Positions 2,684-7,425 of a DNA stretch of 8,848 nucleotides are shown here, piece after piece. The notes below the pieces were generated by a model. The model did not search any database. It was not told the DNA's origin and saw nothing but the letters and a program-made list of their open reading frames with translations. Source of the stretch: Bacillota bacterium (GTDB taxonomy: Bacteria > Bacillota_A > Clostridia > Peptostreptococcales > Anaerovoracaceae). Within the stretch, counting starts at the first letter, position 1; every line of letters begins with the position of its first letter. The translations under genes were made by a program, and so were the position numbers. The stretch is from NCBI GenBank assembly GCA_017457585.1, contig JAFTHD010000148.1:1-8848 (forward strand), in the 5' to 3' direction.

Positions 2684-3514
2684 ATGAAACATTTCAGGGG
2701 ACTCGCATATCCGTATGCAGCATGGTCCTTCGCGCTGATCGTGCTGCCTCTGCTCCTGATAGTGCTCTATTCCATCACTGCAGGAGACAACTCCCTCGTG
2801 ACAATTCATTTTACCCTGGACAACTTCAGAAAGATCGGCGACCCGGTCTATCTGAACGTCTTTGTAAAATCCGCAGAAATCGGCCTCATCGTTACCGGGG
2901 TCTGTTTGCTGATGGCATATCCCCTCGCCTACATCATCACCTGGTTTAACGATGAGATGCAGAGTATCCTCATCCTTGTCGTTACAATTCCTATGTGGAT
3001 CAATACACTGCTTAGAACGTATGCATGGATCAGTCTGCTGTCAGACAACGGGCTCATAAGTCAGCTCTTTGCAAAGTTTGGCTTTGATGCTCCTTCCATG
3101 ATGTACACAAACTTTGCAGTAATCATCGGTCTCGTGTGCGATCTTTTGCCGTTTATGGTGATACCGATTCACACGTCCCTCACCAAAATGGATTACTCCC
3201 TGGTTGAGGCCGCAAGAGACCTGGGCGCCAACAACTTCCAGACTTTCAGAATCATAATCCTGAAGCTGTCCCTTCCCGGAATCATCAACGGCGTCACCCT
3301 CGTCTTCCTGTGTTCCATCTCCAGTTTCGTAGTTCCCGTACTTTTGGGCGGTCGCCAGTACATGCTCATCGGAAACCTGATCGAAAATCAGTTCATCTCC
3401 ATAGGAAACTGGAACTTTGGAAGCGCAATATCCGTACTCCTTGCCATTGCCATACTTCTGATCATGAGCCTTATGAGGCGCATCGATCCTGAGGAGAAAG
3501 GAGCGGACGGATGA
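2684..3514 (+). CDS. potB: Spermidine/putrescine ABC transporter permease PotB
   Basis: An integral membrane protein of 276 residues, the usual length, forming half of the polyamine channel. About six hydrophobic segments are visible near residues 12-32, 63-87, 95-120, 143-163, 203-222 and 246-265. The cytoplasmic EAA loop that docks on PotA is clear: VEAARDLGANNFQTF followed by LPGI (174-200). IPMWINTLLRTYAW (102-115) is a typical PotB stretch. The ATG at 2684 has AGGAG (2670-2674) 9 bases upstream. The 3' end overlaps the start of potCD by four bases (ATGA), a sign of translational coupling within one transcript. Confidence 0.94.
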   Translation: MKHFRGLAYPYAAWSFALIVLPLLLIVLYSITAGDNSLVTIHFTLDNFRKIGDPVYLNVFVKSAEIGLIVTGVCLLMAYPLAYIITWFNDEMQSILILVVTIPMWINTLLRTYAWISLLSDNGLISQLFAKFGFDAPSMMYTNFAVIIGLVCDLLPFMVIPIHTSLTKMDYSLVEAARDLGANNFQTFRIIILKLSLPGIINGVTLVFLCSISSFVVPVLLGGRQYMLIGNLIENQFISIGNWNFGSAISVLLAIAILLIMSLMRRIDPEEKGADG

Positions 3515-5409
3515 TGAGCGCAAAGAAGATCTCACTGGAGCCGAAGCTCTACATTGCCTTTTGCTTTGTATTCTTCTATCTGCCTATCGCGGTCACCATG
3601 TTTTTCTCCTTCAATCAGTCCAAGTCCCTCACCCACTTTACGGGATTTTCACTTCACTGGTACGGAAGACTGATTCACGATCAAAACATTCTGGCTGCGG
3701 TTTACGTGTCCATCAGCATCGCTATTTTTGCCACGATTGCCTCCACAGTTCTCGGCACCATCACGGCCATTGGTCTTTCAAAGAGCCGGAGGCTTCTCAA
3801 AGAGGCACTACTTAACATCAATAACGTACCGATCATGAATCCGGACATCGTGACGGCGATAAGCCTCATGATACTCTTTACATCGGCCGGACTTCAGCGC
3901 GGATACATGACTATGCTTCTCGCACATATTGCATTCTGCACGCCTTTTGTAATAACGAGCGTCTATCCTAAGGTCAGGAGCATGGATCAGAATCTGGCCG
4001 ACGTTGCCATGGATCTTGGAGCTACGCCGTTTCAGGCTCTTACAAAGGTTGTGGTTCCCCTCCTGAAACCGGGGATCTTTGCCGGCATGCTCCTTTCCTT
4101 CACCATGTCCCTGGACGATTTCGTCGTTTCATATTTCGTGACGGGAAACGGTGTTGCAAACATCTCCATACTCGTCTACAACATGACGAAGAGACTGAAT
4201 CCTACGATAAACGCCCTCTCCACCCTGCTCATAATCGCAGTTACCATCGGCATGATCGGCGTAAACCTCTGGCCCGTAATCAGGGACAAATATGGTAAGT
4301 CACGAACAGGTAAATTCAATCACAGCTCCGGCAGAGGAAAGGGAACGCGCAGACTAATCGCAGCACTCTCCGGAATTGCCGCAATCGCTGTCGCTGTCGT
4401 TTTTGCCACCCAGTTTTCGAGTCTATCCGGCAAACCGACCCTGAAAGTGTTCAACAGCGGCGAATACATCGATCTCGATCTGGTCGCACAGTTTGAGGAA
4501 GAGTACGACTGCGACGTAGTCTACGAGACCTTTGATTCAAACGAATCCATGTACACGAAGATTCAGAGCGGCTCCACCTACGATATACTCGTGCCGTCAG
4601 ACTACATGATCGAGCGGCTGATCGACGAAGAATACCTTAAGAAAATCGACTGGCGTCAGATAAAAAACAAGGCCGCCATCATTCCGGAGCTGATAAACGA
4701 CAATGCATACGACCCGGGCTCGGAATTTTCCGTGCCGTACTACTGGGGCTGCGTGGGTATACTTTACGATAAAAATGTGGTCGATCCAGAAGACCTTGAG
4801 GCTGGCTGGGACATACTCATGAACACCAAGTACAAAGGTCAGGTCTACATGTACGACTCCGAGCGTGACTCCTTCATGGTCGCGCTTAAAGCCCTCGGTT
4901 ACTCCATGAACACCACCGATAAGAAGGAGCTCAACGAGGCCTACCAGTGGCTTACAAAGCAGTGCGATCTCATGAACCCTGTATACGTGGGCGATGATGT
5001 GATGGACAACATGATATCCGGCAACAAGGCCATGGCCGTAGTCTACTCAGGCGATGCCGCCTACATAATCGATGAAAACGATGATATGGACTTCTTCGTT
5101 CCGAAGCAAGGCACCAACCAGTGGTACGATGCGATGGTTATAACAAAGCACTGCAGGAACACAGAGCTTGCCACCACCTTCATCGACTACTTCCTGAGGG
5201 AGGATGTAGCCGTACAGAATACCGAATACATCGGATATGACAGCGCCGTAAAATCCGTGTACGAATATTTCAGAGATGAGGAATATGCAGGGAATTCAGG
5301 CTGTGCTCCCGACTCCGATAATTCTCTCAATGAGGTATTCCACAAACAGGAACAGGACATCAAGGTCTACACCGCAAACCTTTGGACGAAGGTCAAATCC
5401 CGCAAGTAA
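3511..5409 (+). CDS. potCD: Fused polyamine permease and substrate-binding protein PotCD
   Basis: A 632-residue fusion of two normally separate transporter subunits. Residues 1 to about 260 are a PotC permease with about six membrane segments and the EAA loop LADVAMDLGATPFQAL...LLKPGI (162-189). A basic linker (259-281) leads to one extra hydrophobic helix (282-301). Residues 309-632 are a PotD-like binding domain: VFNSGEYID (313-321), ESMYTKIQSG (345-354), SVPYYWG (407-413), QWYDAMVI (537-544) and a LATTFIDYFLRED C-terminal lobe. The layout implies both permease ends face the cytoplasm, the added helix crosses the membrane, and the binding domain is tethered outside, replacing a lipoprotein. 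No lipobox Cys is present. AAAGGAG (3497-3503) sits 7 bases before ATG 3511; ATG 3514 is an alternative. The reading frame is unbroken across the junction, so this is a real fusion rather than a missed stop in my reading. In the usual NWGEY ligand motif the Trp is Ser (S315). Confidence 0.93.
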   Translation: MMSAKKISLEPKLYIAFCFVFFYLPIAVTMFFSFNQSKSLTHFTGFSLHWYGRLIHDQNILAAVYVSISIAIFATIASTVLGTITAIGLSKSRRLLKEALLNINNVPIMNPDIVTAISLMILFTSAGLQRGYMTMLLAHIAFCTPFVITSVYPKVRSMDQNLADVAMDLGATPFQALTKVVVPLLKPGIFAGMLLSFTMSLDDFVVSYFVTGNGVANISILVYNMTKRLNPTINALSTLLIIAVTIGMIGVNLWPVIRDKYGKSRTGKFNHSSGRGKGTRRLIAALSGIAAIAVAVVFATQFSSLSGKPTLKVFNSGEYIDLDLVAQFEEEYDCDVVYETFDSNESMYTKIQSGSTYDILVPSDYMIERLIDEEYLKKIDWRQIKNKAAIIPELINDNAYDPGSEFSVPYYWGCVGILYDKNVVDPEDLEAGWDILMNTKYKGQVYMYDSERDSFMVALKALGYSMNTTDKKELNEAYQWLTKQCDLMNPVYVGDDVMDNMISGNKAMAVVYSGDAAYIIDENDDMDFFVPKQGTNQWYDAMVITKHCRNTELATTFIDYFLREDVAVQNTEYIGYDSAVKSVYEYFRDEEYAGNSGCAPDSDNSLNEVFHKQEQDIKVYTANLWTKVKSRK

Positions 5410-5617: not shown

Positions 5618-7099
5618 ATGACTGATGAAAAAGAAAAGAGAAGACAGAACAGAGAACAGAGACGACAGATCAGACAGTCAGTCAGAGACTCCGCAAGAAT
5701 CGAATTAAAGAATCAGATACGAGCAGCAAGACAGGAAAACTTTTTTGACAGCAGCGCTGCATTGATCCAGGAGCGAGACTATATCGAAACAGAAGTATAT
5801 TCACAGTATGACGTTAAGCGTGGACTCAGAAACGCCAACGGCACAGGCGTGCTTGTAGGGCTTACCAAAGTCGGTGAGGTAAACGGATACGAAACGGATG
5901 ACGAAGGCAACAAGATTCCAATCGAAGGTAAACTCTATTACAGAGGCTACAGCATAGAGGATCTGGTAAACAGTTGTATTGCAGAGGACAGGTTCGGATT
6001 TGAGGAGATTACTTACCTTCTCATCTTCGGCGAACTGCCGAGTAGAGACGAACTTGACGCCTTTACAAAATTCCTCGGCAATAAACGTGAGTTGCCGCAG
6101 GGTTTTGCAAGGGATATGATCCTGACGGCGCCTTCCAGCAACATCATGAACAAGCTGGCGAGAAGCGTGCTTGCCCTCTACACTTACGATGACAAGGCTG
6201 ATGACATCTCAATTGCCAACGTGCTCAGGCAGTCCATCGACCTTATCGGTTACTTCCCTGCTCTGATTTCATACGCATATCAGGCAAAGCGCGCTTATTA
6301 CGACAATGACAGCCTTCACCTGAACAATCCCCTTCCTGATCTGAGCACCTCGGAGAACATTCTCAGAATGCTTAGAAGCTCCGGAGAGTACACGGATCTT
6401 GAGGCTAAGCTTCTTGACATCTGCATGATACTGCACATGGAACACGGCGGTGGTAACAACTCATCCTTCACCACTCACCTGATATCCTCCTCCGGTACGG
6501 ATACCTATGCTACGATCGCTGCTGCCATCGGATCCCTTAAGGGACCGAGACACGGCGGTGCCAACGTCAAAGTCATCCAGATGCTGGACGACCTTAAATC
6601 CAACGTCAAGGACTACACCAACAAGCAGCAGGTGGACAATTACCTGAGGAAGGTACTGAGAAAAGAAGCCAACGATGGCACCGGCCTCATATACGGAATG
6701 GGACACGCCATCTACACCAAATCGGATCCGCGAGCAGTCGTTCTCAAAAAAATGGCAAAGCAGCTTGCAGAAGGAAACGACTTCAACGAGACCTTCGAGC
6801 TCTGCAACTACATCGAGCAGAGGACGCCTGAACTGATGGCAGAAGTCAGAGGGCGCGAGACGCCAATGTGCGCTAACGTAGACCTGTACTCAGGCTTCGT
6901 TTACACAGCGCTCGGGATCCCTGAAGAGTTCGCAACGCCGCTCTTCGCTGCAGCGAGAATATGTGGATGGTGCGCTCACAGAATTGAAGAGCTGAGTAAC
7001 GGCAGCAAGCTCATGAGACCTGCATACAAGTCGGTCATGAGCCCTCGCCCATACCTCAGCATAGACAATAGAATCACGACAGTTAGCTTAATTGATTAA
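5618..7099 (+). CDS. gltA: Citrate synthase (si-type, citrate/2-methylcitrate synthase family)
   Basis: Condenses acetyl-CoA with oxaloacetate to citrate in the cytoplasm, feeding 2-oxoglutarate and glutamate synthesis in an anaerobe. The 493-residue product carries the family's catalytic set: H276 in MEHGGGNN, H312 in LKGPRHGGAN, H363 in GMGHAIYTKSDPR with R372, D422 in NVDLYSGFVY, and R455 in WCAHRIEE. The first three correspond to H238, H274 and H320 of the pig enzyme and D422 to D375 (alignment from memory). The core begins near VKRGLRN (67-73). Before it, residues 1-41 form an extension rich in Arg, Gln and Lys, mostly without hydrophobics, absent from the clostridial homologues I recall (about 450 residues). 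It is not a signal peptide. Use of propionyl-CoA (2-methylcitrate) cannot be excluded, though no prp genes are nearby. It is a single-gene unit with its own promoter and terminator. Confidence 0.95.
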   Translation: MTDEKEKRRQNREQRRQIRQSVRDSARIELKNQIRAARQENFFDSSAALIQERDYIETEVYSQYDVKRGLRNANGTGVLVGLTKVGEVNGYETDDEGNKIPIEGKLYYRGYSIEDLVNSCIAEDRFGFEEITYLLIFGELPSRDELDAFTKFLGNKRELPQGFARDMILTAPSSNIMNKLARSVLALYTYDDKADDISIANVLRQSIDLIGYFPALISYAYQAKRAYYDNDSLHLNNPLPDLSTSENILRMLRSSGEYTDLEAKLLDICMILHMEHGGGNNSSFTTHLISSSGTDTYATIAAAIGSLKGPRHGGANVKVIQMLDDLKSNVKDYTNKQQVDNYLRKVLRKEANDGTGLIYGMGHAIYTKSDPRAVVLKKMAKQLAEGNDFNETFELCNYIEQRTPELMAEVRGRETPMCANVDLYSGFVYTALGIPEEFATPLFAAARICGWCAHRIEELSNGSKLMRPAYKSVMSPRPYLSIDNRITTVSLID

Positions 7100-7132: not shown

Positions 7133-7182
7133 AAAAAGCCGTCACTGGCGTTGGAGACTCAACGACTGTGGCGGCTTTTTTT
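7133..7182 (+). terminator. Rho-independent terminator of gltA
   Basis: AAAAAGCCGTCAC pairs with GTGGCGGCTTTTT (one G-T wobble), and an inner stem CGTTG/CAACG closes a 6-base GAGACT loop. Seven T residues (7176-7182) end it. The A-run on the left arm pairs with the T-run, so the hairpin could also work for transcription arriving from the right. Confidence 0.93.
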
Positions 7183-7208
7183 CATAAAACAGATGATGCG
7201 GATGTGTT

Positions 7209-7401
7209 GCAATACCTTTTTTGCATTTTTCGCGTTTTCAGAATTGCAAGTGGTCAAAAGTAATTCTGAAATCGATTTTTTTCTTAAAATAGAATTGCAG
7301 CCGGGGAGACTGCAATTCTGAAATCGTTAAATATGCGTTTTAGGTATTACAATTGATGGTTTGCAATTCTGAAACGGATAAAAATCACGATTAGGTATTG
7401 C
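7209..7401. repeat. Array of four 39-bp imperfect palindromic repeats, period 51-52 bp
   Basis: Four 39-bp units lie at 7209-7247 (inverted), 7260-7298, 7312-7350 and 7363-7401, separated by 12, 13 and 12 bases of unrelated sequence. The consensus is GCAATTCTGAAA, 16 variable A/T-rich bases, then TTAGGTATTGC, so each unit is bounded by GCAAT and ATTGC. By hand alignment the last two units match at about 29 of 39 positions, and the inverted first unit matches the fourth at about 29 of 39. The second unit is a hybrid: its right end is AGAATTGC, the complement of a left end. Neighbouring ends form hairpins, for example AGAATTGCAG/CTGCAATTCT (7291-7300 with 7310-7319, perfect) and TTTCAGAATT/AATTCTGAAA (7236-7245 with 7262-7271, perfect). 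It fills the convergent gap between gltA and the omega-amidase gene. No coding function is apparent and I know no named family with this consensus. Confidence 0.85.
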
Positions 7402-7425
7402 AACGGCTTTTAGCATGACCTAATC
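7380..7425 (-). terminator. Possible terminator of the omega-amidase operon
   Basis: Read on the minus strand, GATTAGGT (7425-7418) and ACCTAATC (7396-7389) form an 8-bp stem around a 21-base loop, then GTGA and five T residues (7384-7380). The left arm contains two bases of the omega-amidase TGA stop codon. One arm belongs to the fourth repeat unit and the other to a decayed fifth copy, so the repeat array may supply the terminator. The large loop and the gap before the T-run make it uncertain. Confidence 0.35.

Follow-up and report, generated by a model that had tools for sequence, protein, structure and literature searches.

The window (the whole 8,848-nucleotide stretch of DNA that we analyzed) carries a citrate synthase gene and a carbon-nitrogen hydrolase (nitrilase) gene that converge on a gap of 325 nt, with the citrate synthase on the left and the hydrolase, which ends at 7424, on the right. 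A non-coding element lies in this gap at positions 7206-7404. A 63-aa frame runs into it, and a protein search with residues 24-63 of that frame returned no candidate. Outside the element, at 7133-7180, there is a hairpin followed by a run of T, likely the citrate synthase terminator, which was not listed by a simple terminator scan. The start of the citrate synthase frame (5627-5689) is of low complexity, rich in arginine and glutamine, and contains a 21-nt tandem repeat. Further upstream, a 632-aa frame (3511-5409, + strand) joins an ABC permease domain (PF00528, residues 79-249) to a solute-binding domain (PF13416, residues 324-590), and this permease-binding protein fusion adjoins an ABC ATPase and a second permease. 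Beyond the window's own four-member cluster, a search of 5.8 billion proteins found no nitrilase closer than 90% identity, which suggests that the host is a rare species. The features of the gap are as follows.

7133-7180, + strand: hairpin with T run, likely citrate synthase terminator, outside the element (inverted repeat I2, 21-nt arms, 86% complementary)
7206-7404, no strand: imperfect inverted repeat, MITE-like or foldback-like (from arm identity, self-inverted alignment and folding)
7206-7217, + strand: left terminal inverted repeat GTTGCAATACCT, 12/12 identical to the other end
7209-7221, + strand: half-site 1, type II (GCAATACCT...)
7235-7247, - strand: half-site 2, type I (GCAATTCTGAAA)
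7260-7272, + strand: half-site 3, type I with GTAAT
7286-7298, - strand: half-site 4, intermediate (GCAATTCTATTTT)
7291-7319, + strand: central hairpin, 10-bp stem and 9-nt loop CCGGGGAGA, DNA fold -9.2 kcal/mol, 0/200 shuffles as good
7312-7324, + strand: half-site 5, type I
7338-7350, - strand: half-site 6, type II with GTAAT
7363-7375, + strand: half-site 7, type I
7389-7401, - strand: half-site 8, type II
7393-7404, - strand: right terminal inverted repeat GTTGCAATACCT, read on the - strand, 12/12 identical to the other end

A preliminary description of this region had proposed an array of four 39-bp palindromic repeats with conserved ends, variable middles and a period of 51-52 bp. We were able to confirm the unit starts at 7209, 7260, 7312 and 7363 (units A, 7209-7247; B, 7260-7298; C, 7312-7350; and D, 7363-7401) as well as the period. 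The conservation of the ends also held, as the end motif GCAATWCYKRAAA, allowing up to two mismatches, occurs at 10 places in the window, six of them inside the array, against 2.33 expected and a maximum of 7 in 200 shuffles. The boundary sequences GCAAT/ATTGC, which had been assigned to every unit, do not delimit all of them: B begins with GTAAT and C ends with ATTAC. The palindromic character of the units did not hold: compared with their own reverse complements, A, B, C and D match at 16, 16, 22 and 20 of 39 positions, respectively. Unit A is reversed, while C and D are forward, and in these orientations the three resemble one another to about the same degree (A-C, A-D and C-D, each 29/39). 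Unit B is an outlier, with 20 to 24 of 39 positions shared with any other unit (23 to 24 in the better orientation) and nearly the same likeness to C whether inverted (24/39) or direct (22/39). Counted differently, the element contains eight 13-bp half-sites in strictly alternating orientation, spaced at steps of 26, 25, 26, 26, 26, 25 and 26 bp, that is, about 2.5 helical turns. The half-sites are of two kinds, GCAATTCTGAAA and GCAATACCTAAA, and the outermost two belong to the second; the 51-52-bp period is one way of counting this ladder.

Taken as a whole, 7206-7404 is a single imperfect inverted repeat of 199 bp centered on base 7305, so that the positions of mirror pairs add up to 14610. 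Its arms (7206-7304 and 7306-7404) align without gaps at 65 of 99 positions, where shuffling one arm gave a mean of 28.6 (sd 4.5) and a maximum of 45 in 5000 trials, and the self-inverted local alignment of the element scored 374, against 111 ± 23 and a maximum of 200 in 500 shuffles. The ends are sharp: the outermost 12 bases on either side are identical (GTTGCAATACCT), and directly beyond the borders mirror matches drop to 1/10 and 3/20. The middles and spacers, described earlier as variable, are not free, since each half of the array mirrors the other in them too. Of the 47 positions outside the half-sites, 25 match (12.9 ± 2.9 expected; 0/20000 shuffles as good), as do 12 of the 21 outside all four units (p ~0.0008); therefore, the symmetry does not merely follow from unit A being C and D in reverse. 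The half-sites themselves are mirrored better (40/52) than these remaining positions, and this difference, together with their even steps and alternating orientation, would suit a docking array in which the assembly of a DNA-binding protein on eight evenly spaced half-sites sets the mirror order. We nonetheless regard such an array as very unlikely, as the element sits downstream of both convergent genes and is absent from relatives in which these two genes lie a short distance apart, and we have no candidate protein.

The folding of the element agrees with this anatomy. Alone, 7206-7404 closes end to end both as RNA (-72.9 kcal/mol, z -8.74) and as DNA (-42.2 kcal/mol, z -7.79), and in neither case did any of 200 shuffles fold as well. 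When the units were folded singly as single-stranded DNA, A, B and C did not outperform their shuffles (107, 56 and 144 of 200 were as good, respectively), whereas D did (6/200). Hairpins are formed instead at the junctions A|B (1/200) and B|C (0/200), but not at C|D (105/200). Hairpin formation is therefore a property less of the units than of the whole and its junctions. A 301-nt segment that includes the neighboring hairpin folds strongly on either strand (z -7.65 and -8.76), which could also be read as the mark of an RNA element, a long hairpin that would stabilize or process the 3′ end of either transcript. This is the explanation to which we give the least credence, considering that a hairpin on both strands is expected from any inverted repeat, that Rfam yielded no match, and that the structure is not kept in relatives.

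The initial assignment of the locus to an ordered, repeat-built, palindrome-related and non-coding feature between convergent genes was thus borne out, while its proposed kinship with REP/BIME clusters was not. Under that proposal a RAYT-like enzyme would act on a REP/BIME-type array of clustered palindromic units. The intergenic position near convergent gene ends, the regular spacing and the presence of both orientations do recall BIMEs as they are described in the excerpted text of PMC2817692, and, of 49 genomes in the genus, 14 encode the IS200/RAYT-type domain PF01797. However, this domain is missing from the closest relative, G001, and from the seven window proteins scanned against Pfam. 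According to the excerpted text of PMC3733652, one end of published REPs bears the tetranucleotide GTAG or CGTC, and neither occurs in 7206-7404 on either strand. Moreover, three of the four units are not stable hairpins, and the mirror similarity reaches into the spacers (12/21) to make one long inverted repeat. A REP/BIME-type cluster is in our opinion quite improbable; the element may work in a BIME-like manner, through paired inverted units recognized by an enzyme. A transposase acting on pairs of ends, which the preliminary description had also put forward, is possibly involved.

The same gene pair in relatives gave a view of the locus without the element. Among 47 genomes of the genus with a match we collected 30 nitrilase loci, 15 of which had both gene ends readable, and measured the gap as the distance between alignment ends rather than stop codons. 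It spans 28-136 nt in eight of the 15 relatives. In the closest one (L017/L123 of G001), where the genes keep their order and are 88% (citrate synthase) and 89% (nitrilase) identical to those of the window, it is 61 nt. In the other seven it reaches 1022-1266 nt, so the gap is not uniformly short, a point against a mobile element; a mirror scan of these long gaps revealed nothing like the element.

The identical ends, the full-length inverted repeat, the lack of a gene, the low GC content and the shorter gap in close relatives all pointed to a MITE-like passenger. We therefore propose, with a probability of roughly 0.6 and on the grounds of its anatomy and its absence from relatives, that 7206-7404 is a short non-autonomous mobile element of the MITE or foldback type, or the relic of one. 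Such a gene-less element would be mobilized in trans by a transposase encoded elsewhere, for which the identical 12-bp ends would be putative sites of binding and cutting, and the inner half-sites could either bind it as well or have arisen from the end by tandem duplication. Transposition would have brought the element into the gap that separates citrate synthase from the carbon-nitrogen hydrolase, where it disrupts nothing. The proposal is weakened by the lack of a target-site duplication (with the borders shifted from -4 to +4, no direct repeat of 4-12 bp appeared at up to one mismatch), of a recognized second copy in the collections searched, of a parent transposase and of GTTGCAATACCT ends paired on one contig in 349 genomes of the family. 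The missing duplication weakens the MITE reading without overturning it, because the direct repeats that flank MITEs wane with age, as stated in the excerpted text of PMC10969869, and the arms here have diverged by 34%. This divergence would fit an old insertion or, alternatively, an element whose arms were unequal. The lack of a duplication and of copies elsewhere (among genomes that did not include the window's own) would also fit a palindrome that never moved but was built in place from a 51-bp unit, by slippage during replication or a template switch at a hairpin. The right arm, a tandem pair of 51-bp units (31/41), and the even likeness among A, C and D speak for this local inverted duplication. 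On the other hand, the left arm is poorly tandem (20/41 between its two units), and both borders end sharply in identical 12-bp sequences, with conservation best at the outside; we consider a purely local origin possible but unlikely.

To prospect for further copies we covered viruses, plasmids and phages as well as 349 genomes from the family and samples from the order and the class, a set that did not include the window's own genome. The preliminary description had called for such a search in the genome and its relatives; it was carried out in relatives, and no further copy was recognized. For the relatives searched, this is the outcome that the preliminary description had named as refuting its idea, although the decisive genome would be the window's own. 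These searches were sensitive to copies about as alike as the window's units are to each other and less sure for more distant ones. The exact unit pattern matched no stretch in genome contigs and none in viral contigs, and the unit pattern was likewise absent from 41 relatives. A looser version matched four viral contigs (L119-L122) without an array: L119, L121 and L122, which we searched for repeats, represent one phage-like region where the match falls within overlapping reading frames, and the match in L120 is an isolated palindrome. One arm pattern found no viral contig and another found five, near which no 60-bp mirror exceeded 31/60. Among plasmids, three records were returned, with a best match of 26 bases (E 0.2), and the one we inspected held nothing notable; among phages there were 14 records, at E 0.8. 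A BLAST search of the 349 family genomes with 231 bp, scoring at most two candidates per genome, gave matches at E ≤ 1 in 259 of them, and the best E value (5.1e-4) is near chance because 349 genomes were searched. A profile of the four units found eight places in seven of these genomes at E ≤ 0.01, where about 3.5 genomes are expected by chance, and inspection of the eight loci by eye showed no array. Two weak profile matches in a single genome (L190 and L197 of G101) are near-identical stretches, TCAACGGTTTCAGAATTGCAAATTTGTTCGACTCCCCCCATCA, also without an array.

Searches with shorter patterns returned more matches. The terminal sequence GTTGCAATACCT occurs exactly at 79 places in 64 of the 349 family genomes, about twice as often as its reversed control (~40). 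Considering exact matches only, and with many of these genomes in draft form, it was never paired on one contig, and we found no insertion sequence with GTTGCAATACCT ends in the same set. Exact GCAATTCTGAAA was present at eight places in five of 10 relatives' genomes (three for the reversed control), and the left-end pattern with one mismatch at 16 places in 16 of 391 genomes of the class (five for the control). The inner-arm pattern, with up to three mismatches, matched 75 of 393 genomes of the order, and of these we examined G266 and G376, in which several matches looked alike. In a mirror scan of 1,235,493 bases of loci (90-bp arms, at least 50 matches), the window scored 56, next to 53 for L110, 54 for L187 and 57 for L188, the last being a pair of G376 elements. 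With three loci at a similar score, such palindromes are rare but not unique. In the literature, the GCAATTCTGAAA string appears in four papers, none of which deals with bacterial repeats judging by title, and no work joining Anaerovoracaceae with an inverted repeat was retrieved.

Should the element be mobile, a poorly studied group would gain a MITE-like family, and the regular, alternating half-sites would allow a straightforward test of the use of reiterated inner binding sites by a transposase in a non-autonomous passenger. Should it be immobile, it is an instance of a long palindrome retained on a bacterial chromosome. A bolder and improbable extension would make it the representative of a new class of miniature foldback elements in anaerobic Clostridia, with arms of evenly spaced, alternating half-sites about 2.5 helical turns apart. 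On these the putative transposase would assemble as a regular filament or multi-subunit complex and not at the two ends only.

Finally, we compared the element with known systems. Foldback transposons such as FB and Galileo have long inverted arms with sub-repeats, as does the element; the known cases are eukaryotic. The window's element differs from them in being bacterial and far shorter, with a clear tandem pair in the right arm only. Compared with the REP and BIME clusters described in the excerpted texts of PMC3733652 and PMC2817692, it shares inverted copies that are regularly spaced between genes but departs from them in having no GTAG/CGTC tag, weak unit hairpins and one overall inverted repeat. 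The third comparison was with bacterial MITEs, of which the Correia element, QMITE2 and Chunjie are examples given in the excerpted text of PMC10969869. Like them, the 199-bp element is shorter than 500 bp, AT-rich (GC 0.337 against 0.484 for the window), intergenic and gene-less, folds into a strong and stable stem-loop, and has terminal inverted repeats in the range of ~4-30 bp (GTTGCAATACCT, 12/12). Unlike them, its inverted repeat runs over the full length with reiterated, end-like half-sites, and no target-site duplication was found. Comparable designs occurred in the two genomes that we examined, where they were found because the search pattern resembles them. G266, of the same family, has a dispersed palindromic family of ~230 bp with 24 matches, bounded by AAGTCATCCGAAA and with the end repeated once more internally (loci L164-L166 and L170-L179). 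When ten of its elements were compared with ours, 1 and 2 of 200 shuffles were as good for two of them and 15 to 186 for the others, so their sequences indicate no clear kinship. G376, of the same order, has a dispersed short inverted-repeat element with ends GAGSAAATTGCATAA in 66-bp and ~117-bp forms (loci L180-L189), with at least 65 matches (40 of 392 candidates scored) and identical 4-bp flanking repeats in nine of the 10 loci inspected by eye, the exception being L186. Both families differ in sequence from the window's element, to which they are unrelated or not demonstrably related, but share with it the inverted ends and the inner copy of the end, and they show that this order harbors such elements with reiterated ends.
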